A DNA stretch of 64,000 nucleotides, taken from assembly GCA_016350165.1 (NCBI GenBank), contig CP066225.1:1240001-1304000 (forward strand), written 5' to 3'. This document shows, in pieces, positions 1,197 to 13,558 of this stretch. Every line of letters starts with the position of its first letter. Position 1 is the first letter of the stretch. This stretch comes from Planctomycetota bacterium. Its GTDB lineage: Bacteria > Planctomycetota > Phycisphaerae > Phycisphaerales > Phycisphaeraceae. The notes beneath the pieces are model-generated. The model did not search any database. It worked only from the letters and a program-made list of their open reading frames with translations, and was not told the origin of the DNA. Position numbers and translations under genes: made by a program.

Positions 1197-1513
1197 CATT
1201 CCCTCCCATTTATCACCCCTATACACAACAAACACCTCACCTACCGCCATCAAATCTCAGCCATGCACCCCCTCTCGCCATTTTTTTTCAGCATCTCTCC
1301 AATCTATAAACCTCGCAAAAACAATAATTAACCTTATCCTGTATATACATTTATCGCTATCAGTATATATACATTGTATTGACGCGGGACACATCCCACA
1401 TTACGATGAACTCAGCCCTCACAAACACAGCATCCAATCAAACAACCGCTACGCACCCTTCCACAGGCAATCTGCCTGCAAAATCAGGCCAACACGCGAC
1501 AAAAGGAATCACA

Positions 1514-2287
1514 ATGCCAAACCAAACAAACAAAGCGTTCACTCTAATTGAACTTCTTGTTGTCATATCTATCATCGCTTTGCTCATCGGAATACTTCTG
1601 CCAGCACTCGGCGCTGCAAGACAAAGCGCACAATCAATCAAATGCGCCACGCAAATGCGGCAGTTCACCCAGGCAAATCACATGTACGCCAACGACAACG
1701 ATGACTCCATCGTCCCCGCACGTTCAGGCGGATCTAACATCGACGTCACTGATTACTGGGCACACGACCTCTACCCATACATCGGCCAAGGAGAACTCGA
1801 CCAATCCGGCGCAGCTATCGAACTCGACACCGCAGATGCCGACAACGTTTTTGTCTGCCCATCATCCATCAACGGCTACAAATTCTCCGACGACAACGAG
1901 CAAGAACCAAACATGGCCTCACCTTGGTACCGCTACACCTACAGCTTCAACCTCCTCGCACCTCACTGGTCACTCAAACGTGCTGGTATCGATGGCACAT
2001 GGGACTACATCGTCTCCGGCGGAGCAAAACTCACCAGCATCATGCGACCAACCGAAACAGCATTCCTTCTCGAAGGTAGTGGCTACTACATCAACACCGA
2101 CATGTACTGGCTCGGCGGCGCATACCCAACTCTCGCAACAGGCCTTGCTCCTCACAACAGCGACTCTGCAAACGTCCCTTACTACGATGGCCACACCGCT
2201 AACGTCAAGCCTCGCACCGAAGTACCTATGAACAGCGACGCCATCTTCTGGGGCGGATCAAACCAAACCAACACCTACAAAGACTAA
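1514..2287 (+). CDS. Prepilin-like protein with H-X9-DG-type C-terminus
   Basis: A 257-residue single-pass protein of the type II pseudopilin-like family that is greatly expanded in planctomycetes. The leader MPNQTNKA is followed by FTLIEL with the conserved Glu at +5 and a ~20-residue hydrophobic helix (VVISIIALLIGILLPAL), as needed for prepilin peptidase cleavage and methylation. The C-terminal part has a histidine followed ten residues later by YDGH, the 'H-X9-DG' processing-associated signature. I chose the ATG at 1514 because AAAGGAA lies 7 nt upstream and the leader then has normal length; the frame is open back to 1379 but those 45 residues look non-coding. Unlike the array at 24.8-30.9 kb it stands alone and ends in its own terminator. 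Cell-surface or secretion-linked role by family; exact function unknown. Confidence 0.9.
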   Translation: MPNQTNKAFTLIELLVVISIIALLIGILLPALGAARQSAQSIKCATQMRQFTQANHMYANDNDDSIVPARSGGSNIDVTDYWAHDLYPYIGQGELDQSGAAIELDTADADNVFVCPSSINGYKFSDDNEQEPNMASPWYRYTYSFNLLAPHWSLKRAGIDGTWDYIVSGGAKLTSIMRPTETAFLLEGSGYYINTDMYWLGGAYPTLATGLAPHNSDSANVPYYDGHTANVKPRTEVPMNSDAIFWGGSNQTNTYKD

Positions 2288-2395
2288 ACCTCCACAAAAC
2301 CAAAGCACAACGCATTTATCTCATATAAGACACAGTAAATCACACACCGATTTTGTACTACTCATCCCACTGACCTTTGAGTAGTCATGCATCGC

Positions 2396-2429
2396 GGCAC
2401 AGACAGCAAAACTGCCTCTGTGCCTTTTT
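2396..2429 (+). terminator. Rho-independent terminator
   Basis: Stem GGCACAGA/TCTGTGCC, loop containing CAGCAAAACTGCC which can extend the stem, then five T. It closes the prepilin-like gene at 1514-2287. Confidence 0.85.
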
Positions 2430-2509
2430 CTTTGTGCATAAATACCTATAAAACAGCATATTAACCACATTCCCCTGCCTTTTTGCCTTCACAAATTCAC
2501 GCAAAAAAC

Positions 2510-2551
2510 TTGAGCAACTATCCACGCCAAACCATTGCAGCAGTTGCTCAA
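2510..2551. repeat. Perfect 10-bp inverted repeat
   Basis: TTGAGCAACT at 2510-2519 and its exact complement AGTTGCTCAA at 2542-2551, separated by 22 bases. No T-run follows, so it is not a standard terminator. It lies 3 bp before the possible small reading frame at 2554 and could be an operator or an RNA hairpin. Confidence 0.6.
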
Positions 2552-2553
2552 CG

Positions 2554-2775
2554 ATGATACTTTCAGACCGCTGCCACGCAATTCATATCCGACGCCCAAC
2601 ACGGAGACATCATCATTTCACCACCATTCTCATGATCTCACTCACCTCTTTTCTTCTCACACCACTCTTACACGCAACCACCAAACAGGACATCCTCAAC
2701 CAATCCGTCGCTGGTACCCATGGGCGTCTCAACTACCGATACGTCGCAGCCCAAAAAACACATCGCCCATTTTAA
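2554..2775 (+). CDS. Possible small secreted protein
   Basis: A 73-codon frame whose later part has the strong C-ending codon bias of the neighbouring genes. An internal ATG at 2632 would begin MISLTSFLLTPLLHA, a short but convincing signal peptide, followed by about 32 polar residues. No recognised domain and no clear ribosome site at either start. It lies between a terminator and the leader of the first PEP-CTERM gene. It may be a genuine small exported peptide, or the remnant of a longer gene; I lean slightly against it. Confidence 0.28.
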   Translation: MILSDRCHAIHIRRPTRRHHHFTTILMISLTSFLLTPLLHATTKQDILNQSVAGTHGRLNYRYVAAQKTHRPF

Positions 2776-2815
2776 CATCACCACACCCAAAACTAATCCA
2801 CCACCTATACAGTAC

Positions 2816-2939
2816 CATTTTTTATTGCATATTCATCACGATGATTTACAATCCACATGGATCATATCAACGGGCAAAGCACTTCTGTATCTGCTCCCCT
2901 TAACAATATCAATCGCCTATGTTTCTTGGAGGGCAATCC
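2816..2939 (+). promoter_or_regulatory. Conserved leader of PEP-CTERM gene, copy A
   Basis: This stretch matches 5146-5268 almost base for base from CATTTTTTATTGCATAT to the start codon. Best conserved are TCAACGGGCAA, GCACTTCTGT-TCTGC and CAATATCAATCGCCTATG, ending in a GGAGGGC ribosome site. GGG-CAA-AGCA can pair with TGCT-CCCC around CTTCTGTATC; copy B keeps the pairing with changed bases. It is either a cis-acting RNA in the 5' UTR or a promoter/UTR carried along by duplication. It matches no riboswitch class I know; GGGCAAA recalls c-di-GMP-I but the second conserved strand is missing. Confidence 0.6.
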
Positions 2940-3719
2940 ATGTCACAACTACTTAAACGCGCTCAAAATATCGCCGCATCATCCGCGCTCGCAACTACAG
3001 CACTCACCATCGCACCCATCGACGTCGCATCCGCCAGCGTCGACCCCGGCTTCACACTCACTGAAACTAAAGCCATCATGGGTTCATCCGGCGGCAGCGC
3101 AACACATGAAACTTTCCCTTCCAACACAATGTCGCTCACATCCTTAACACCAAACACTGCATCAATCACAGCCAACACCACAATCTCACCTACGTACGAA
3201 CAATCCACTCAGCCAGCATTTTCATGGAATGGTAATTTCCACGGCACCATCAATGAGGGCGATCTACTCACGATGGATTTCAATTTCAACGTCATCACCA
3301 GCACCGCCAACGAAGCCGACACGCTCATCATCTACGTCGGAATCACTGATGCAAATCAATTTCCCATTTACTTGGATCCCAACAAAACACTCAGTACATC
3401 CGTCTCTCCAGATAGCTATATTTACGCTTCATCAGTTGAAACAATTGATGACAAAAAAATTCACAACTTCAAGATCGATACGCCCATCTCAAAAGCAATC
3501 ACAGCCTTAAACAATAACCCAGCAACCCAATGGGGGCCTGATCTTAAATGGTATGCAAGCTTCTACTTCACCTCCGGCATCGACAAACAATCACCCAACA
3601 TCACACTGGACATCCCCGTCAACGGCTTCCGCATTGGTATCAACGACATCCCCGAACCATCATCTATCCTACTATTAGGCTCCGCAGGCCTTCTACTCCT
3701 AAGACGCAAACACGCATAA
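2940..3719 (+). CDS. PEP-CTERM exported protein, copy A
   Basis: A 259-residue protein with an N-terminal signal peptide (MSQLLKRAQ... ending in ASASV near residue 34), a Ser/Thr/Asn-rich beta-type middle domain, and a C-terminal PEP-CTERM signal: IPEPSSILLLGSAGLLLLRRKHA. The PEP motif, hydrophobic helix and Arg/Lys tail direct sorting by an exosortase, known for surface and biofilm-matrix proteins. No exosortase gene is in the window. The ATG at 2940 is chosen because GGAGGG precedes it by 6 nt; an in-frame ATG 21 nt upstream would overlap that site. Paralogue of 5269-6081: both share ASAGFTL-like mature starts, W-G-x-G-x-EGD-L, and F-x-GIN-IPEP. The GT4 gene at 3785 follows after a terminator. 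Confidence 0.9.
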   Translation: MSQLLKRAQNIAASSALATTALTIAPIDVASASVDPGFTLTETKAIMGSSGGSATHETFPSNTMSLTSLTPNTASITANTTISPTYEQSTQPAFSWNGNFHGTINEGDLLTMDFNFNVITSTANEADTLIIYVGITDANQFPIYLDPNKTLSTSVSPDSYIYASSVETIDDKKIHNFKIDTPISKAITALNNNPATQWGPDLKWYASFYFTSGIDKQSPNITLDIPVNGFRIGINDIPEPSSILLLGSAGLLLLRRKHA

Positions 3720-3744
3720 ACCAAACCCAAAACAAAACACAAAA

Positions 3745-3771
3745 AGTCTACCACAACAGGTAGGCTTTTTT
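3745..3771 (+). terminator. Rho-independent terminator
   Basis: Stem AGTCTACC/GGTAGGCT (one G-T pair) with loop ACAACA and six T. It separates the PEP-CTERM gene from the GT4 gene, so the latter may be expressed by read-through or by its own promoter; the next start codon is only 13 bases further on. Confidence 0.85.
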
Positions 3772-3784
3772 ATAATCAATCATC

Positions 3785-5005
3785 ATGAGCAAACGAATCC
3801 TTCTCATACTACCCCAAACCAGTTTCGACTTCGCAAGCGGAGCCGCGCTCAGCGCTCGCATCCTCGCCGAAACACTCGCCAACAATCATTACCAAGTCAC
3901 CATCCTCTGCCCCACCGCCAACGAAAGCGACACTCAAAACGATCAGCATCAAAAAACGCTCGATCAATTCAACATCACACCAAACCAATATACCCTACAA
4001 AACCAGACCATTTACAACTTCAATCACAAGAACATCGAGCATCACATTCTCCACGCACAAGGCTCACCCACCACCTGGCTCGACAACAACCAAGCCGCCG
4101 ACACATTCGAACAACTCATTCAACAACAACTTCAATCATTCAACCCTCACCTCGTCTTCACCTACGGCGGCGCACACCGTTCCCACAACTGGATCAACCT
4201 CATCAAGCAATCAAACGCATCCCTCGCCTTGCTCATCTACAACTACGCCTACAGCAAAAGCCATCAATACCTCCACGCCGCCGACCTCGTCATCGTTCCC
4301 TCCCAGCACACCGCCAACTACTACCTCCAAACAACCAACACACACTGCGTCGCAATCCCAAGCCCCGTCTTCCCCGAGGTAAGCCTCGCCCCCGAACCAC
4401 GCGACCCCGTCTTCCTCACCATGATCAATCCCTCCATCGAAAAAGGGCTTCACTTCGCCACACAACTCGCTCATCAACTCGCCACCCAACGTCCCGACAT
4501 CCCCATGCTTTTCGTCGAAGGGCGTGGTTCAACAGGCCATCTCCTCGCCTCCGCCAAAGAAGCAAACATTGATCTCACCAAACATCCATCCATCATGATC
4601 GCTCAGCAAACCCACAACATCCGAGAAGTCTATCGCATCTCTCGCACCATCATCATGCCTTCAATCTTCAACGAATCCTATGGCCGAGTCGCCGCTGAAG
4701 CACTCATCAATTCAATCCCCATCATCGCATCCGACCGAGGCGCCCTCCCCGAAATCATCGCCGACAACGGGTTCGTTCTCCCCTTCCCTCCTCACATCAA
4801 CCTCAACCTCACCAAACCCGTCTCCCCAGAAGACGTCCAACCCTGGCTCGACCTCATCATCAAACTCACCGACGACCAAACTTTCTACACCCAAGCCGCC
4901 CAAAACGCCAAAGCCGCAACCCCTCGCTTCTCCAACCAAGCTTTCACCCAAAAGCTCCTCACCAGCATCAACCACCTCACAAACCAAACAACGCCTTCCA
5001 CCTAA
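3785..5005 (+). CDS. GT4-family glycosyltransferase, copy A
   Basis: A 406-residue cytosolic retaining glycosyltransferase of the GT-B fold. The N-terminal lobe starts RILLILPQTSFDFASGAA with the Gly-rich acceptor-side loop typical of GT4; the C-terminal lobe has the E-x7-E motif ESYGRVAAE followed by IIASDRGALPEI for nucleotide-sugar binding. It transfers a sugar from an NDP- or polyprenyl-type donor; the sugar cannot be told from sequence. It is a close paralogue, of identical length, of 6219-7439, and both sit directly after a PEP-CTERM gene. The link suggests glycosylation of the exported partner or synthesis of a glycan it binds; this is inference. The end of the gene (residues ~355-395, WLDLIIKLTDDQ-FYTQA) is nearly unchanged between copies. 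Confidence 0.9.
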   Translation: MSKRILLILPQTSFDFASGAALSARILAETLANNHYQVTILCPTANESDTQNDQHQKTLDQFNITPNQYTLQNQTIYNFNHKNIEHHILHAQGSPTTWLDNNQAADTFEQLIQQQLQSFNPHLVFTYGGAHRSHNWINLIKQSNASLALLIYNYAYSKSHQYLHAADLVIVPSQHTANYYLQTTNTHCVAIPSPVFPEVSLAPEPRDPVFLTMINPSIEKGLHFATQLAHQLATQRPDIPMLFVEGRGSTGHLLASAKEANIDLTKHPSIMIAQQTHNIREVYRISRTIIMPSIFNESYGRVAAEALINSIPIIASDRGALPEIIADNGFVLPFPPHINLNLTKPVSPEDVQPWLDLIIKLTDDQTFYTQAAQNAKAATPRFSNQAFTQKLLTSINHLTNQTTPST

Positions 5006-5145
5006 CCAACATTTAAATACTTCACATCTCCCCTACAGATTACCCTCTTCCTCATTCACACTAAATTCCTGCTCATTTGCCCGTAACAATCTTACCTATT
5101 CCAACATCACCCCAAACCCATACCAACACACATCGCAAACAACCT

Positions 5146-5268
5146 CATTTTTTATTGCATATCCATCACCATGACATAAAATTCACTTGGATCTTTTCAA
5201 CGGGCAAGCACTTCTGTTTCTGCACCCATATCAATATCAATCGCCTATGTTTTCCAGGAGGGCTATCT
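5146..5268 (+). promoter_or_regulatory. Conserved leader of PEP-CTERM gene, copy B
   Basis: Second copy of the leader at 2816-2939. From CATTTTTTATTGCATAT to the ATG it is 123 nt against 124 nt in copy A. It keeps TCAACGGGCAA, GCACTTCTGT, TCTGC, CAATATCAATCGCCTATG and AGGAGGGC. The putative stem is GGG-CAA-GCA...TGC-A-CCC, one pair shorter than in copy A but still able to form. The unit ends in a strong ribosome site 5 nt from the start codon. Confidence 0.6.
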
Positions 5269-6081
5269 ATGCCAACGACAACGCTCATAGAAAAAGCGAA
5301 ACAGCTTGTAAACAAAAAAACGATCGCAGCAACGGCTATCGCCATTACGCCACTCGCAACTGCCGCTCCAGACGCAAACGCTTCAGCTGGATTTACACTC
5401 GATGACGCTTTCTATACCGGAACATATTCCGGCGGCGAATTCTTTGATGATATCTATCGTGACTCAATGGATGCATCAGCTACCAACGACAACGCCATCG
5501 CATTCACATGCAACACTACACTTAATGAAGATTTCGATTCACCCATATATGTTTGGCGAGGCAAATACAACGGATCCGTATCAGAAGGCGATCAACTTGT
5601 TTTTGATTTAAGCTTCACAATAAAAGCGCCTAAAGACGCATCCGTAGGAACACCCAACTTCCAATTCCTGCTCTCTGATGCAGATGGGTTCTCCTCGGAA
5701 TCCGCAACAACGAATCCAGCGACAAGCCTTAACACCTATTTTAATATCGGCGTTTTCAATTGGTACCATTCTTTTGCCCACAACGAAACGACAACAGGCG
5801 ACATTACAACCCACACATACCACATTAAACAAAACAAAATTCTCACGAAAGATATCGAAGGTTTTGGTGACGACAACCCCGGACAATGGGATTCAGGCCT
5901 TATATGGCAACTAAAATTATCTCATAACTCAATTATGAGCTTCCTGCCAGACAAATACTACGAAATGTCCATCCAGCCCGAATCCTTCAAAGTTGGCATC
6001 AACGCCATCCCCGAACCCGCATCTATCTCACTATTAGGCATCGCAGGCCTCATCCTCACCACACACAGGCGCCGCAAATAA
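5269..6081 (+). CDS. PEP-CTERM exported protein, copy B
   Basis: A 270-residue paralogue of the protein at 2940-3719. Signal peptide up to about residue 40 (KTIAATAIAITPLATAA...ANASA), then a domain starting AGFTLDDAF, a middle W-RGKYNGSVSEGDQLVFDLSF block that matches copy A, and the PEP-CTERM tail IPEPASISLLGIAGLILTTHRRRK. The ATG at 5269 follows AGGAGGGC; the frame is open upstream to 5077 but that stretch is the conserved leader. The middle region has diverged strongly from copy A while the ends are kept, as expected of surface proteins under changing selection. Likely sorted by an exosortase encoded elsewhere. Ligand or structural role unknown. Confidence 0.9.
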   Translation: MPTTTLIEKAKQLVNKKTIAATAIAITPLATAAPDANASAGFTLDDAFYTGTYSGGEFFDDIYRDSMDASATNDNAIAFTCNTTLNEDFDSPIYVWRGKYNGSVSEGDQLVFDLSFTIKAPKDASVGTPNFQFLLSDADGFSSESATTNPATSLNTYFNIGVFNWYHSFAHNETTTGDITTHTYHIKQNKILTKDIEGFGDDNPGQWDSGLIWQLKLSHNSIMSFLPDKYYEMSIQPESFKVGINAIPEPASISLLGIAGLILTTHRRRK

Positions 6082-6105
6082 AACAACCAACAAACATAAA
6101 CTCAA

Positions 6106-6134
6106 ACCCATTGGCCAAAAACCAATGGGTTTTT
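6106..6134 (+). terminator. Rho-independent terminator
   Basis: Perfect 9-bp stem ACCCATTGG/CCAATGGGT, loop CCAAAAA, then five T. It follows the second PEP-CTERM gene exactly as the terminator at 3745 follows the first, but the sequences differ. Confidence 0.9.
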
Positions 6135-6196
6135 CATTCCCCACCTCCAATTCAACAGCTACAATAAACCACACAATTAACGAACAACCCAATTAC

Positions 6197-6211
6197 CTAA
6201 TCATCGATTAG
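6197..6211. repeat. CTAATCATCGATTAG palindrome
   Basis: 15-bp palindrome (CTAATCA/TGATTAG arms with one change at the centre), ending 7 bp before the start codon of the second GT4 gene. Other copies are at 7484, 32674 and 35444. Its position would let it act as an operator or as a hairpin over the ribosome-binding region. Confidence 0.6.
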
Positions 6212-6218
6212 ATAAAAC

Positions 6219-7439
6219 ATGAAACCACGCATCTTACTCCTGCTCCCACAATCACCCTTCGACAACGCAAGCGGTGCCGCTGTTTCATCACGCACCATCG
6301 CCGAAACACTCGCCGCCAACAATTTCACCGTCCAAACCCTCTGCCCAACCACCATCGAAAAACACAACCCCAAACACGATCACTACCAAGACCTCATCAA
6401 CCTCAAACTCAACCCCATCAACAAACAATACAACAATCAAACCATCTATCATTTCACACACAAAAACGTCGAACACACACTCCTAAAAACCAGCCTCTCC
6501 TCAAAAGATTGGCAAAACGATACTCACATCGCCGATACCTTCGAGCAGCTCCTCCACCAAACCCTAACCACCTTCAAACCTCACATCGTCATGACCTATG
6601 GCGGATCGCACCGTGGTCCCAATTGGCTAAACCTCATCAAACAATCACAAGCCGCACTCGTCCTCCTCATCCACAACCTAGCCTACAAAAGTGCAAACTA
6701 CTTCAACGCCGCCGACCTCATAATCGTCCCCTCTCAATTCACCGCCGACCACTACCACAACCTGCTAGGCTCAACCTGCACACCACTTCCAATACCCATC
6801 AACCCAACCACAATCATCCCCAACCAACCTCGCGACCCCATCTTCCTCACCATGATCAACCCCTCTCCCGAAAAAGGGCTTTTCTTCGCCATACACCTCG
6901 CCCACCATCTCGCCACAAAGCGCCCCGACATCCCCATACTCTTCGTCGAATCACGCGCCACCGCAGGCCACCTCCTCGCCGCAGCCAAACAACACAATAT
7001 CGACCTCACTCAACATGAATCCATCATGGTCACCCCACAAACAGACGACATCCGCGACATCTATCAAATCACACGCACCCTCATCATGCCTTCCATCATC
7101 CAGGAAACCGGAGGCCGCGTCGCCGCCGAAGCACTCATCAACGCCATTCCCACCATCACCTCCGACCGAGGCGCCCTCCCCGAAACCGTCTCAACCCACG
7201 GCTTCCCCCTCCCCCTCCCCAAAACCCTCAACATGCAAAACCTGGACGCCCCCATCACCCCCCAAGACACTAACCAATGGTTAGACCTGATCATCAAACT
7301 CACCGACGATCAAGCCTTCTACACGCAAGCCTCCCAAAACGCCAAAGCAGCCATCCCCCGCTTCTCTCCCGAAACCTTCACGCAAAAACTCCTTGCATGC
7401 CTCAATCCTCTCCTCATTCAAATAGCCAACCCCACCTAA
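6219..7439 (+). CDS. GT4-family glycosyltransferase, copy B
   Basis: A 406-residue paralogue of 3785-5005, aligned over its whole length. Starts RILLLLPQSPFDNASGAAVS; C-terminal lobe has E-x7-E as ETGGRVAAE and then TSDRGALPETV. Differences cluster in residues 45-75 and 205-220, acceptor-lobe loops, so acceptor choice may differ between copies while the donor site is kept (inference). The preceding 137 bp hold the terminator of the PEP-CTERM gene and a palindrome, and there is no good Shine-Dalgarno sequence (TAAAAC before ATG). The gene is very C-rich on the coding strand, like the whole 3-7.5 kb block. Confidence 0.9.
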   Translation: MKPRILLLLPQSPFDNASGAAVSSRTIAETLAANNFTVQTLCPTTIEKHNPKHDHYQDLINLKLNPINKQYNNQTIYHFTHKNVEHTLLKTSLSSKDWQNDTHIADTFEQLLHQTLTTFKPHIVMTYGGSHRGPNWLNLIKQSQAALVLLIHNLAYKSANYFNAADLIIVPSQFTADHYHNLLGSTCTPLPIPINPTTIIPNQPRDPIFLTMINPSPEKGLFFAIHLAHHLATKRPDIPILFVESRATAGHLLAAAKQHNIDLTQHESIMVTPQTDDIRDIYQITRTLIMPSIIQETGGRVAAEALINAIPTITSDRGALPETVSTHGFPLPLPKTLNMQNLDAPITPQDTNQWLDLIIKLTDDQAFYTQASQNAKAAIPRFSPETFTQKLLACLNPLLIQIANPT

Positions 7440-7483
7440 CCATCAAGTAGACTCACCCCACTTCGATTACCACAGCACGCCAT

Positions 7484-7498
7484 CTAACCATTGATTAG
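7484..7498. repeat. CTAACCATTGATTAG palindrome
   Basis: Member of the CTAAYCAWYGATTAG family, with one mismatch between the arms, 45 bp after the stop of the second GT4 gene. A second TCAATCAATCAC stretch follows. Together with 6197 it brackets that gene. Confidence 0.55.
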
Positions 7499-7733
7499 TC
7501 AATCAATCACTCCGTACATCCGCTCACCCCAAACATTACACCACCACACCATACCTTTCGCCGCAACTAAAACCTTCTCAACATCCCATCACCATCAAAC
7601 AAACAACCTCAAAACTATGTAAAATCAGCATATATCGCCCAAAAACTGCGATATCCCGCCCACCTGATGCATACACTGCTCCATGGGCAACCCAACAGAA
7701 TAAACAACCTAAATTTAGGTATAGGATAGACTT

Positions 7734-9245
7734 ATGTCGGAAAGTACAGGCCTCAAAGCCAAACTCAAAGTCGGGATGGAGATCCACGTCGAACTCGCCA
7801 CGCGCTCAAAAATGTGGACCGCCGCACCAAATGTCGCCCACCCAGACTTTTTTGACTCCGAACCCAACACTTTGCTCTCCCCAGTCGTCATCGGCATGCC
7901 CGGAACGCTGCCTGTGATGAACAAAGAGGCGGTTGAGATGTCGATCAAGGTCGGCATGGCGCTTGATTGCGAGATCGCGAAGAAGTGCAAATGGGACCGT
8001 AAGTCTTACTATTACCCTGACTTACCAAAAAACTATCAAATTTCACAATACGATCAGCCGCTCGTTGGCGAAGGTGAGATGGAAATCCCGCTGACCGACG
8101 ATCCGAACGGCCCAACCAAGACGATTCGCATCACGCGCGCACACCTTGAAGAAGATGCGGGCAAGTTGGCGCACGAAGGCCCGGGCGGCGCACCGATCGA
8201 TCACTCGATTGTTGACTTGAACCGTGCGGGGACACCGCTACTGGAAATCGTTACTGAGCCTGACTTTAGCTCTGCTGATGAGGCTGTGACATTTGGTCAA
8301 ATGCTGCGTGATATTTGCCGCCACTTGGGTGTGTCGGAAGGGATTATGCAGAAGGGTCACATGCGTTTTGAGCCGAACATCAACGTCGAAATTGAGAAAG
8401 ATGGCAAGGTTTACAAGACGCCGATCGTGGAAATCAAGAACCTGAATAGCTTTAGAGCGGTTCATGGTGCGATTACACATGAGTATGACCGTCAGATCGA
8501 AGAGTGGCTGGAAACAGGTGTTGTGATGGGCGCTCGTGCGAAGACAACTCGCGGGTGGGATGATGTGAAGGGTGTGACATTACTCCAGCGTACGAAAGAA
8601 GATGCGGATGAGTATCGTTACTTCCCAGATCCAGATTTGGTTGATCTGATCGTTGAAGATGAATGGCTGGCTGAGATTGGTAAGGGCGTGACTGAGTTGC
8701 CGCTGAAGAAATTGCAGCGATACATGGGCGAATACAAATTGAACGAGAAGGATGCTCGGGCGTTGGTCGATGAGCCTGCCACAACTCGTTACTACGAAAA
8801 GACTTTGGAACTCGGGATGGACCCGAAACGTGCAGCAACGATGTTGTTGAATTATGGCCTAAAACGTGCGAACGAAGCGGGTTGTAGAATCGATGAGATC
8901 GGCATCACGGCTGAGCAGGTTGCAGGCATTGAAGCACTGCTTAAAGACGACAAGATCGGCAGCTCGGCTGCGGATGAGTTGTTCGGCTACTGCTGCGAGA
9001 GCGATGACACGGCTGAGAAGCTTGCTGATAAGCATGGTCTGGTTCAGGTATCTGATACAGGTGCTTTGGAAGGCTTTGTGGATGAAGTACTTGCGAATGA
9101 TCGTAATGCGAAGATCGTTGCGGACATTGAAGGCGGCAAGGACGCGGCAGTGGGCGCTTTGATTGGTCAGATCATGAAGCTGTCAAAGGGCCAAGCGAAT
9201 CCAAAGATGATCCGTGAGATCATTATCAAAAAGGTTCGGGGCTAA
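7734..9245 (+). CDS. gatB: Asp/Glu-tRNA(Asn/Gln) amidotransferase subunit B
   Basis: A 503-residue GatB. It carries out the kinase/transamidation step that turns Glu-tRNA(Gln) and Asp-tRNA(Asn) into Gln- and Asn-tRNA, in the cytosolic GatCAB complex. Diagnostic blocks: MEIHVELATRSKMW near residue 17, YYYPDLPKNYQISQYD near residue 92, and a C-terminal YqeY-like domain ending ANPKMIREIIIKK. Length is normal. Start supported by AGGATAG 4-10 nt upstream. gatA and gatC are not adjacent. The coding strand is C-rich in the first ~170 bases and becomes clearly G-rich from about 8.2 kb, part of a strand-skew change discussed under findings. Confidence 0.97.
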   Translation: MSESTGLKAKLKVGMEIHVELATRSKMWTAAPNVAHPDFFDSEPNTLLSPVVIGMPGTLPVMNKEAVEMSIKVGMALDCEIAKKCKWDRKSYYYPDLPKNYQISQYDQPLVGEGEMEIPLTDDPNGPTKTIRITRAHLEEDAGKLAHEGPGGAPIDHSIVDLNRAGTPLLEIVTEPDFSSADEAVTFGQMLRDICRHLGVSEGIMQKGHMRFEPNINVEIEKDGKVYKTPIVEIKNLNSFRAVHGAITHEYDRQIEEWLETGVVMGARAKTTRGWDDVKGVTLLQRTKEDADEYRYFPDPDLVDLIVEDEWLAEIGKGVTELPLKKLQRYMGEYKLNEKDARALVDEPATTRYYEKTLELGMDPKRAATMLLNYGLKRANEAGCRIDEIGITAEQVAGIEALLKDDKIGSSAADELFGYCCESDDTAEKLADKHGLVQVSDTGALEGFVDEVLANDRNAKIVADIEGGKDAAVGALIGQIMKLSKGQANPKMIREIIIKKVRG

Positions 9246-11427: not shown

Positions 11428-11525
11428 TTTTATGTTTATAGATAGCTAAGTAATAGTTGTGTTGTTTTCTATTAGGAAACACTCCACATCGGCTGTGCGT
11501 GTGAGGGATCATCTTAGTGGTTATA

Positions 11526-11558
11526 AAAAAACGCTCACGGTGGTGTGAGCGTTTTTTG
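11526..11558. terminator. Bidirectional terminator
   Basis: AAAAAACGCTCAC/GTGTGAGCGTTTTTT stem with A-run before and T-run after. It can end both the NTPase gene (+) and the RDD gene (-), which converge here. Confidence 0.9.
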
Positions 11559-11578
11559 TTTTGTTTTTAGTTTTAAAT

Positions 11579-13558
11579 CTAATGCTTGGTTAGATCATTG
11601 GGTTGATCGTCATCGTCGTGTGGTGGTGTTTTTGAAGGATCGTGTTCGTCTTCTTTGAGATGATGGGCTTTGTCTTTTTCCTTGGGCATAACGACGACGG
11701 TTTTGGCGAGGATGTCGCCGAGGCGTTGGCGGGTGTGGATGAAGACTGGGAAGAGAAGTGCGATTTGGATGAGCAATTCGATAATTTTTGAGATGCCACG
11801 TGTGAAGAGTTGCGTGCTGGAGGGCGTTTTACCATCCATTGTGGTGACGTGGATGCCGGTGAATATTTTGCCGAGGGTGCGGCCTTTGGTGATCATTTCG
11901 GTGATGGTGGTGTGCGCGAGGAAGACAGCGATGAGTGTGATGGAGGGGATCATTTTTGTGAAGGTGAGGTTGCCGTTGTTGGGCCATGTCTCGCTAAGAC
12001 CTGAGAATGAGAGGTCGAAGATGTACATGATGGGGAAGAATACGATGGCGAAGTCGATTGAGGCGGCGAGCATGCGACGTGGGAAATCGCAGAGTGTGAG
12101 GTTATCTGGGAGTTCAAGTTTGTTGTTGCGTGGATCACGAACGACGAGAAGGATGATCATGAGGATGGCGAGGCCGATGAGGATGATTGAGATGATGTTT
12201 TGTGTGACCATCTCGAGATAGCGTGGTTCGGTGGGCGTGAGGGTTTGGATGTTTGTTTCAGTCTTAGCGATGATTAGAGGTTGGCCTTGCAGGGTGAGTT
12301 GGGAGAGATCAAGCGCGATTTCCTGAGGCGCGGGTGTTGTGAAACCCCACATGCTTGTGACAGTTGTTGGTTTTGTCGGCTTGTGCTCGGGGCGAGCTGC
12401 GAGAAGAGCGAGGTTGTTGTTGTATGGAATGGCGGCCCATTGAGAGGTATTTGGGATAGCAAGATCGAGCATACCAACAGAGATGGCTTTGCTGTCACGA
12501 AGGATGGTGTAGTGTGTGACGAGATCGGGTTTGTCGGCGAGTTGTTGAGCGAGAATGATCTGGTTGTCTTGCGCGAAGAAAGCTGGTCGTGAGGCAGGTT
12601 TTGCGTTGTCGGGAAGAGGCGCGTTGACGGTTTTTGTTTCCCATGACTCGGTGGCTGGGTTGTATTGATCGACGCGGAATGTGTTTTGCTGGGTGTCTGG
12701 CTGGGTGATGAGTGTTGGGTAAAGTGCATCGGAGTTTTGCACGACAAGCCAGGCTGGTTTTGCGTGTGGGTAATTGGATGGTAGAGAAAGATGCTGCCAC
12801 CGACCTGCGATGAGAATGAAGAGACGATCAATACTGACTTTGTTTGCAGTCTCGTTTGGTTTTTCCGTTTTTTCCGGAGTTGTTGTATCAGTTACTGCGT
12901 TTGATTCTGAGGGCTCAGCATCTGGTGCTTCGGATGGTTCGATGAGTGGTGGATTGATTGATGTGAGTGGTTCTAACTGAGTATTAGAGGGAGCGAGATC
13001 ACGTTCTGCTTCGCTGGCTTGTTCGTAGGATTCGAAGCGTAATAGTGCGAAGGCACGTGAACGGCTTGCTGCGAGTGAGCGGAGGTCGGCTGAGTGGAAG
13101 ATGGGTGGTTGTGGTGATGGTTCGTATGAATAGAAGGCTTGGTTTGCGGGGAGGATGGGAGTGAGGGTTTGAAAGGCGAGCCCTTGATTGTTGGGGAGTT
13201 TGTAGGCGAGCCAAAGTCTGTCGGGGGCGGAGGCGAGGCCATCGGTGGCGAGTTGGCCGTTGAAAATTGTGGCGAGGGCGATGTCGCCTGCAGGTTGATT
13301 GATGTTGCGGTGATAGATGGCGAGAGCGTATTGGTCTTGAGGCTGAGCGGGTTTGCTGTCAGCTGATGAGGATTGGTTATTTGTGGCTGATGCGGTGGTG
13401 GGTGAGAGTGGCTGCTGATATGAGTAGATGTACCAGATGTTTTGATCGTCTGATACTGCAGAGAGGTTTTGTGCGGAGGATAGCGAAGGCAGCGCGAGGC
13501 TGAGAGTGAAGATGAGTAGCGAGACGAAGCTGAACATGATTGCTTTATTTGGTTTCAT
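11579..13558 (-). CDS. RDD-domain membrane protein with large exported N-terminal part
   Basis: 659 residues. Signal peptide at 1-29 (LLIFTLSLALPSLSSAQ), then ~420 residues of exported, Gln/Ser/Pro-rich sequence without a recognised fold, a transmembrane helix near 455-475 (IISIILIGLAILMIILLVV), and a C-terminal RDD domain: FPRRMLAASIDFAIVFF, then GRTLGKIFTGIHV and RQRLGDILAKTVVV with the conserved Arg/Asp pairs. RDD domains occur in membrane proteins of unknown or ion-transport function. The tail is acidic and His-rich (HDDDDQPND). The pairing of a large periplasmic sensor-like part with RDD is seen in planctomycetes; the function is unknown. It is monocistronic by its spacing. Confidence 0.85.
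   Translation of the reverse strand: MKPNKAIMFSFVSLLIFTLSLALPSLSSAQNLSAVSDDQNIWYIYSYQQPLSPTTASATNNQSSSADSKPAQPQDQYALAIYHRNINQPAGDIALATIFNGQLATDGLASAPDRLWLAYKLPNNQGLAFQTLTPILPANQAFYSYEPSPQPPIFHSADLRSLAASRSRAFALLRFESYEQASEAERDLAPSNTQLEPLTSINPPLIEPSEAPDAEPSESNAVTDTTTPEKTEKPNETANKVSIDRLFILIAGRWQHLSLPSNYPHAKPAWLVVQNSDALYPTLITQPDTQQNTFRVDQYNPATESWETKTVNAPLPDNAKPASRPAFFAQDNQIILAQQLADKPDLVTHYTILRDSKAISVGMLDLAIPNTSQWAAIPYNNNLALLAARPEHKPTKPTTVTSMWGFTTPAPQEIALDLSQLTLQGQPLIIAKTETNIQTLTPTEPRYLEMVTQNIISIILIGLAILMIILLVVRDPRNNKLELPDNLTLCDFPRRMLAASIDFAIVFFPIMYIFDLSFSGLSETWPNNGNLTFTKMIPSITLIAVFLAHTTITEMITKGRTLGKIFTGIHVTTMDGKTPSSTQLFTRGISKIIELLIQIALLFPVFIHTRQRLGDILAKTVVVMPKEKDKAHHLKEDEHDPSKTPPHDDDDQPNDLTKH

Follow-up and report, generated by a model that had tools for sequence, protein, structure and literature searches.

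A duplicated pair of PEP-CTERM protein and GT4 glycosyltransferase genes in a deep-sea planctomycete, with counterparts in other Phycisphaerales

Does a glycosyltransferase gene that twice follows a PEP-CTERM gene belong functionally to that neighbor? The question is raised by a locus of Poriferisphaera heterotrophicis ZRK32, a deep-sea planctomycete, within an analyzed stretch of 64,000 nucleotides (the window). Two units lie head to tail (2818-5005 and 5148-7439). In each, a conserved leader is followed by a PEP-CTERM gene, then by a hairpin terminator and finally by a GT4 gene of 406 residues, which confirms the two successive units proposed in a preliminary description. The extent given there, 2816-7439, contains both units, but unit-to-unit similarity begins further upstream, near 2766, and the units are closely preceded by a gene remnant. 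Between the units, identity is 86% for the leaders, 58% for the GT4 proteins and 29% for the PEP-CTERM proteins, and the reading frames of both genes are intact in both copies.

2940-3719, forward strand: PEP-CTERM protein 1, 259 aa, ending IPEPSSILLLGSAGLLLLRRKHA; TIGR02595 21.4 bits (cut-off 16)
5269-6081, forward strand: PEP-CTERM protein 2, 270 aa, ending IPEPASISLLGIAGLILTTHRRRK; TIGR02595 20.7 bits (cut-off 16)

Both PEP-CTERM proteins carry the C-terminal PEP motif, transmembrane stretch and basic tail that TIGR02595 describes, and both exceeded the cut-off in a genome-scale Pfam search, the second only with its neighbors in the frame. Their alignment (score 225, best shuffle 2) retains the ends and diverges in the middle, as previously described. 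By eye, the N-termini display a positive n-region, a hydrophobic stretch and Ala-X-Ala sites, as in a possible signal peptide. The two proteins share a distinctive N-terminal signature that is carried by none of the roughly 148 other PEP-CTERM motif genes of the genome, which holds about 150 in total and 27 tandem PEP-CTERM clusters. The body of protein 2 was predicted with modest confidence to form a beta-sandwich (AlphaFold mean pLDDT 63.5), and the model bears a weak resemblance to lectins and carbohydrate-binding modules, the TM-scores being low. Serine and threonine make up 24.6% and 19.5% of the mature proteins. Exosortases are present in the genome, with three PF09721 matches over the cut-off, of which one passes TIGR02602 and none a named exosortase class.

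3785-5005, forward strand: GT4 glycosyltransferase 1, 406 aa; EX7E motif in PSIFNESYGRVAAEA; PF00534 58.2 bits (cut-off 26.4)
6219-7439, forward strand: GT4 glycosyltransferase 2, 406 aa; EX7E motif in PSIIQETGGRVAAEA; PF00534 46.6 bits; the slower-evolving copy

The glycosyltransferases align end to end, again as anticipated (score 1190, best of 200 shuffles -3). Their assignment to GT4 is based on the Glycos_transf_1 domain, the EX7E motif and a predicted GT-B fold, the latter with an AlphaFold mean pLDDT of only 66. For the second copy, the best PDB matches of this predicted fold were glycogen synthases and GT4 enzymes; Foldseek placed GT4s acting on polysaccharides or small molecules higher than those that modify proteins, with GtfA at rank 25. 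Within the GT4 family (PF00534/PF13439), with which they share both domains, the motif and the fold, the two enzymes fall into a subfamily of their own, distinguished by an N-terminal SGAA motif and about 26-58% identity among the members found. This subfamily has no curated name, and no solved structure is closely related to the GT4 profile. Other affiliations were rejected: PADLOC returned no defense system match, PF20706 ("GT4-conflict") matched copy 1 at 28.6 bits, more weakly than PF00534, and copy 2 below the cut-off, and no match was found in phages, a distant GT4 on a Thiodictyon plasmid being the one related find. Both members of unit 1 appear to have evolved faster than those of unit 2, as seen from the GT4 tree branch lengths (0.54 vs 0.15) and the profile scores of the partner N-termini (19.1 vs 26.7 bits).

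2818-2939, forward strand: leader 1, 86% identical to leader 2; by-eye candidate promoter TTGCAT (2825-2830), 16 nt, TACAAT (2847-2852)
within 2818-2939, forward strand: leader 1; candidate 5' UTR of about 80 nt, Shine-Dalgarno GGAGGG
5148-5268, forward strand: leader 2, 86% identical to leader 1; TTGCAT (5155-5160), TAAAAT (5177-5182), Shine-Dalgarno GGAGGG
3741-3770, forward strand: terminator hairpin 1; 12-bp stem, U tract; -14.8 kcal/mol, z -9.1
6104-6132, forward strand: terminator hairpin 2; 11-bp stem, U tract; -15.3 kcal/mol, z -6.7

The leaders share 103 of 120 aligned bases (2818-2939 against 5148-5268), in comparison to 53% identity at GT4 synonymous sites between the copies (pS 0.47), indicating that the leaders are under constraint. 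Such identity, far above that of synonymous sites, could also reflect a structured regulatory RNA or riboswitch controlling both units. We regard this as very improbable: an Rfam search of the leader gave no match, even at E 5, folding of the leaders does not exceed that of shuffled sequences (z -0.5 and +1.3), the predicted folds differ between the two copies, and the constraint is accounted for by a promoter and a ribosome site. The leader is likewise rejected as an element controlling PEP-CTERM genes in general, since it was absent near all 30 other PEP-CTERM loci tested, and a genome-wide search found it at these two places only. The Shine-Dalgarno GGAGGG precedes both PEP-CTERM genes. GT4 gene 1 has no Shine-Dalgarno and carries TATAAT 8 nt before its ATG. 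Both hairpins are much more stable than mononucleotide shuffles, to which their z-scores refer.

2632-2775, forward strand: remnant of an esterase-like PEP-CTERM gene, a 47-codon 5' stub; 5' edge of the module
7572-7733, forward strand: resumption of DNA similarity to P. corsica KS4 ahead of gatB, marking the 3' limit of the replaced segment

The sister species P. corsica KS4 carries an intact PEP-CTERM esterase-like gene at the place of the module, of which it shows no convincing trace. The remnant matches residues 2-48 of the KS4 protein (tblastn of 2620-2757, 68.75% identity, E 2e-12), and the 3' edge was placed by local alignment of 7440-7740 with the KS4 locus (L088). The PEP-CTERM and GT4 pair probably replaced the esterase gene at this locus and was tandemly duplicated.

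We searched 400 Phycisphaerales genomes for the GT4 subfamily, which was found in only 12, and inspected 17 loci including the two of the window. A PEP-CTERM neighbor was present at 5 of the 17 (one was not assessable): the two loci of the window, DLM2.Bin74 (G113), and two further genomes, G283 and G275. The expectation that GT4 homologues usually stand beside a PEP-CTERM gene was thus not borne out; most of the subfamily members found do not, which is literally the outcome named beforehand as counting against the pair, and means that the chemistry of the enzyme requires no such neighbor. Nor is pairing a clade trait, as the paired state showed no clustering on the GT4 tree, where it required 4 changes against a mean of 4.5 for shuffled labels, and 196 of 500 shuffles gave a number at least that low. 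A first scan of genome contigs for relatives gave no match, and a profile scan recovered DLM2.Bin74, a weak match in Chloroflexi and nothing else.

The pairs that do occur elsewhere resemble the window to different degrees. DLM2.Bin74 reproduces its part order, codirectional and including the terminator (PEP-type gene 1309-1977, hairpin with z -3.5, GT4 at 2132-3352 of locus L119). The arrangement is also reproduced in G283 (terminator z -5.2) with a different PEP-CTERM gene, whose product lacks the N-terminal signature in the profile search; in G275 the two genes lie head to head. The distinctive N-terminus is common to the partners of the window, DLM2.Bin74 and G275: when 4,418 reading-frame segments were ranked with a profile built from the window's two N-termini alone, the partners from G275 and G113 came third and fourth, both with E 2.5e-5, and the following match had an E of 0.24. 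The middles no longer align across the three or four known pairs, and serine plus threonine reach only 12-18% in the partners from other genomes.

Could the adjacency be an accident that tandem duplication then copied? With about 150 PEP-CTERM genes in the genome, a GT4 gene will sometimes lie beside one by chance, tandem PEP-CTERM clusters are common, and GT4 and PEP-CTERM genes come within 1.5 kb of each other 3 times against 1.8 expected, which also disposes of a genome-wide habit of pairing. Three of the 14 assessable loci outside the window are paired, marginally above a background of 7% (our estimate, P about 0.07). Accidental adjacency would not, however, yield homologous partners in three genera, and the G113 and G275 partners are related to those of the window by a signature absent from the other PEP-CTERM genes here. 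We therefore consider chance unlikely and the pair a conserved association: the GT4 gene is conserved beside a homologous partner in three lineages, in other families as well as here, and such a partner is absent at most GT4 relatives. The preliminary interpretation is supported in part, its copied, diversifying pair being real, with two diverged units and such counterparts.

That distant relatives carry the pair suggests that the enzyme works with, and perhaps on, the neighboring protein; a putative glycosylation of the partner by the adjoining GT4 is plausible. We tentatively favor, with a confidence a little short of even, a model in which each unit is a functional pair, one member being an exported beta-sandwich protein sorted by an exosortase and the other a cytosolic GT4 that modifies it. 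High expression of the PEP-CTERM gene would come from the conserved leader before it together with a strong ribosome site, the hairpin would stop most transcripts, and the GT4 would be made in smaller amounts through read-through or a promoter close to its start. The GT4 may then add sugar to serine or threonine of its neighbor before Sec export, guided by the distinctive N-terminus, after which the protein, freed by an exosortase, would enter the envelope or the matrix. The pairs in DLM2.Bin74 and G275 with their N-terminal profile match, the arrangement in G283, the retained motif and fold, the serine and threonine content here, the apparent joint acceleration in unit 1 and the exosortases point toward this model; the many unpaired relatives, the signature-less G283 partner, the lower serine and threonine content elsewhere, the missing solved relative and the Foldseek ranking point away from it.

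An alternative is a GT4 that builds a surface or capsular glycan, which a lectin-like, unglycosylated PEP-CTERM protein binds or anchors at the cell surface in one matrix function. In Zoogloea and Aquincola, PEP-CTERM proteins keep exopolysaccharide attached to the cells (PMC9850573, PMC12188702), the partner model has its weak likeness to lectins and carbohydrate-binding modules, and frequent absence of a PEP-CTERM gene is expected of a glycan-building enzyme. On the other hand, polysaccharide-assembly genes were not recognized in the immediate flanks, a lone GT4 recurrently paired with a single exported protein would be unusual in a polysaccharide locus, and the conserved part of the partner is the N-terminus, which, if a signal peptide, is cleaved and is no binding site. 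We see this as a real possibility, held at roughly one chance in three.

Returning to glycosylation of the partner, the units might even represent a protein-glycosylation pair of a kind not yet described in exosortase bacteria, with the N-terminal export region serving a second role as a tag by which the protein's own GT4 recognizes it, and with the copies becoming two private substrate-enzyme couples; we offer this as a speculative and rather doubtful extension. PEP-CTERM glycosylation has been suspected since the discovery of these proteins (PMC1569441; repeated in PMC7783341 and PMC12188702), and in the literature surveyed no enzyme is assigned to any given PEP-CTERM protein. A small, self-contained pair recurring across Phycisphaerales brings the question within reach of a direct test using two genes, and its duplication here provides a built-in test of substrate specificity through partner swapping.

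Among known systems, the locus shares with the PEP-CTERM/exosortase (EpsH) system (Haft 2006, PMC1569441) the PEP motif, hydrophobic stretch, basic tail and export-like N-terminus, as well as exosortases and many PEP-CTERM genes in one genome. As in Aquincola pepA-prsT (PMC9850573), a terminator separates the PEP-CTERM gene from the downstream gene, whereas inspection of the unit leaders by eye revealed no sigma-54/PrsR-type upstream site. The window GT4 also differs from the XrtA-system glycosyltransferase (TIGR03088), falling below the equivalog cut-off (13.4 bits vs 409.05), and we found no description of a PEP-CTERM protein paired with one dedicated GT4 in the literature surveyed. The units are not members of the serine-rich repeat glycoprotein system with GtfA/GtfB (PMC5578698), having neither serine-rich repeats nor an adjoining GtfB partner; what they would share with it is a way of working, in which a neighboring cytosolic glycosyltransferase modifies an exported surface protein before export.

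The two PEP-CTERM + GT4 units reported in the preliminary description were both present in the window, which covers positions 1240001-1304000 of a single contig and has a G+C content of 46.3% in a Poriferisphaera heterotrophicis ZRK32 genome of 5,234,020 bp and 46.28% G+C (CP066225; PMC10945688). The features of the locus and of its counterpart in the sister species P. corsica KS4 are as follows.

Features of the duplicated module and its KS4 counterpart
2632-2775, forward strand: stub of an esterase-like PEP-CTERM gene, 47 codons, 68.75% identical to the KS4 gene product where the two align (E 2e-12)
2940 (unit 1) and 5269 (unit 2), forward strand: PEP-CTERM gene starts, each preceded by GGAGGG
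3785-5005, forward strand: GT4 gene of unit 1
6219-7439, forward strand: GT4 gene of unit 2
11490-12950 of the KS4 stretch L088: intact esterase-like PEP-CTERM gene, in the same place as the ZRK32 module

The two GT4 proteins align over their full length at 58% identity, and the two PEP-CTERM proteins share 29%; both similarities are well over those of shuffled sequences. Because the leaders retain 86% identity over 120 aligned bases, against just 53% at GT4 synonymous sites (pS 0.47, dS 0.74, dN 0.33), the comparison indicates that the leader is maintained by selective constraint. A genome-wide search recovered no further leader copies elsewhere in ZRK32, and none lay near any of 30 other PEP-CTERM loci tested in that genome. 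A strong hairpin with a U tract lies 3' of each PEP-CTERM gene (z -9.1 in unit 1 and -6.7 in unit 2), 14 and 86 bases, respectively, upstream of the GT4 start. The GT4 starts show no clear Shine-Dalgarno sequence; by eye, TATAAT lies 8 bases 5' of the unit 1 GT4 start and TATACT 6 bases 5' of that in genome G283, a proximity that would suit leaderless transcripts.

The KS4 counterpart site is flanked by a DUF1559 pseudopilin gene and by gatB (92% identical), and contains the intact esterase-like gene and no GT4. In ZRK32, the esterase gene is truncated where the duplicated module starts, nothing of its remainder is left at the locus, only distant paralogues (best 29% identical) were recovered elsewhere in the genome, and KS4-like DNA picks up again near 7572. 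On the simplest interpretation, a ~4.8 kb segment took the place of the greater part of the esterase gene in the lineage of ZRK32. An ancestor with both module and esterase gene could conceivably have given the same arrangement through two separate deletions, although no convincing trace of the module is seen in KS4. Within 1379-9245, the genes from the pseudopilin through the unit 2 GT4 are strongly C-rich on the coding strand (skew -0.3 to -0.57), as is the KS4 esterase gene (-0.44), while gatB has the same orientation but is rich in G (+0.15).

The GT4 subfamily is rare, occurring in 3/248 genomes of the class, 3/392 of the phylum, 12/400 of the order and 8/163 of the family of Phycisphaerales DLM2.Bin74 (G113), with no above-threshold match in KS4. 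Flanking genes were read at all 17 loci found, among which that of G829 runs into a contig edge. The pair recurs in G113, with parts ordered as in the window units, hairpin included; in G283, where a terminator is also present; and in G275, where the pair is divergently arranged. Counting the two window units, a PEP-CTERM neighbour is thus present at five of the 17 loci. In G848, another gene intervenes between the GT4 and a PEP-CTERM gene ~1.2 kb away; in G816 the neighbour is a divergent pseudopilin, and the remaining loci have unrelated neighbours. In G1043, the gene upstream of the GT4 (the GT4 itself being at 5674-6867 of stretch L143, in GT4 orientation) is divergent and encodes an exported Kelch-type protein with a dockerin-like DLSGNGNVDFADILAVIGAWGSC tail, another exported protein beside a GT4, but with a different C-terminal signal. 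The G592 relative (stretch L137) may lie in a prophage remnant, since the preceding gene resembles a phage large terminase.

Paired members were not grouped on the GT4 tree (4 label changes versus a shuffled mean of 4.5), which indicates that the subfamily also functions without this partner. Within ZRK32, proximity to a PEP-CTERM gene is not overrepresented among the 25 GT4 genes: 3 lie within 1.5 kb of one (1.8 expected), two of them at the window locus.

Chance neighbourhood nonetheless does not account for the pair, since a homologous partner stands beside a homologous GT4 in three lineages. The window partners resemble those of G113 and G275 at the N-terminus (xxLLxRAxxLVxxxxxATALAIAPLAxAAxASA). 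The search set comprised 4,418 reading-frame segments from the GT4 flanks and the surroundings of all 150 ZRK32 PEP-CTERM places. In it, a profile based on the two window N-termini alone retrieved the G275 and G113 partners (E 2.5e-5 each; next segment 0.24), and the reverse profile, from G113 and G275, retrieved the window pair (E 1.2e-6 and 3e-4). The signature was absent from all other PEP-CTERM proteins of ZRK32 at these 150 places and from the G283 partner. Outside this putative N-terminal export region the partner has diverged nearly past recognition, which makes the region unusual as the conserved part; a recognition role is our guess.

Both exported proteins exceed the TIGR02595 cut-off. 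The PEP-CTERM motif occurs at about 150 places in ZRK32, far above the 65 proteins reported in Verrucomicrobium spinosum (PMC1569441); around four fifths exceed the Pfam cut-off, and the motif genes include 27 tandem clusters, each of two to six genes. Of the three exosortases in the genome, one exceeds the cut-off of the general TIGR02602 model, but no exosortase could be assigned to a named class. Pfam places the window glycosyltransferases in GT4; they contain the EX7E motif and have a predicted GT-B fold. AlphaFold models were of modest confidence (mean pLDDT 63.5 for the PEP-CTERM protein and 66.3 for GT4), with a predicted beta-sandwich for the PEP-CTERM body whose closest solved structures match weakly.

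Collectively, the pair is real, duplicated and conserved, and the interpretation first proposed is partly supported. Beyond the established unit anatomy, constrained leader, conserved pair and intact catalytic motif, we infer that the GT4 would glycosylate the neighbouring PEP-CTERM protein prior to export. In the leading alternative, the GT4 contributes to synthesis of a glycan which the exported protein binds. Glycosylation of PEP-CTERM proteins has long been suspected (PMC1569441, PMC7783341, PMC12188702), with no enzyme assigned to it in the literature consulted, and the pair offers a small testable case.
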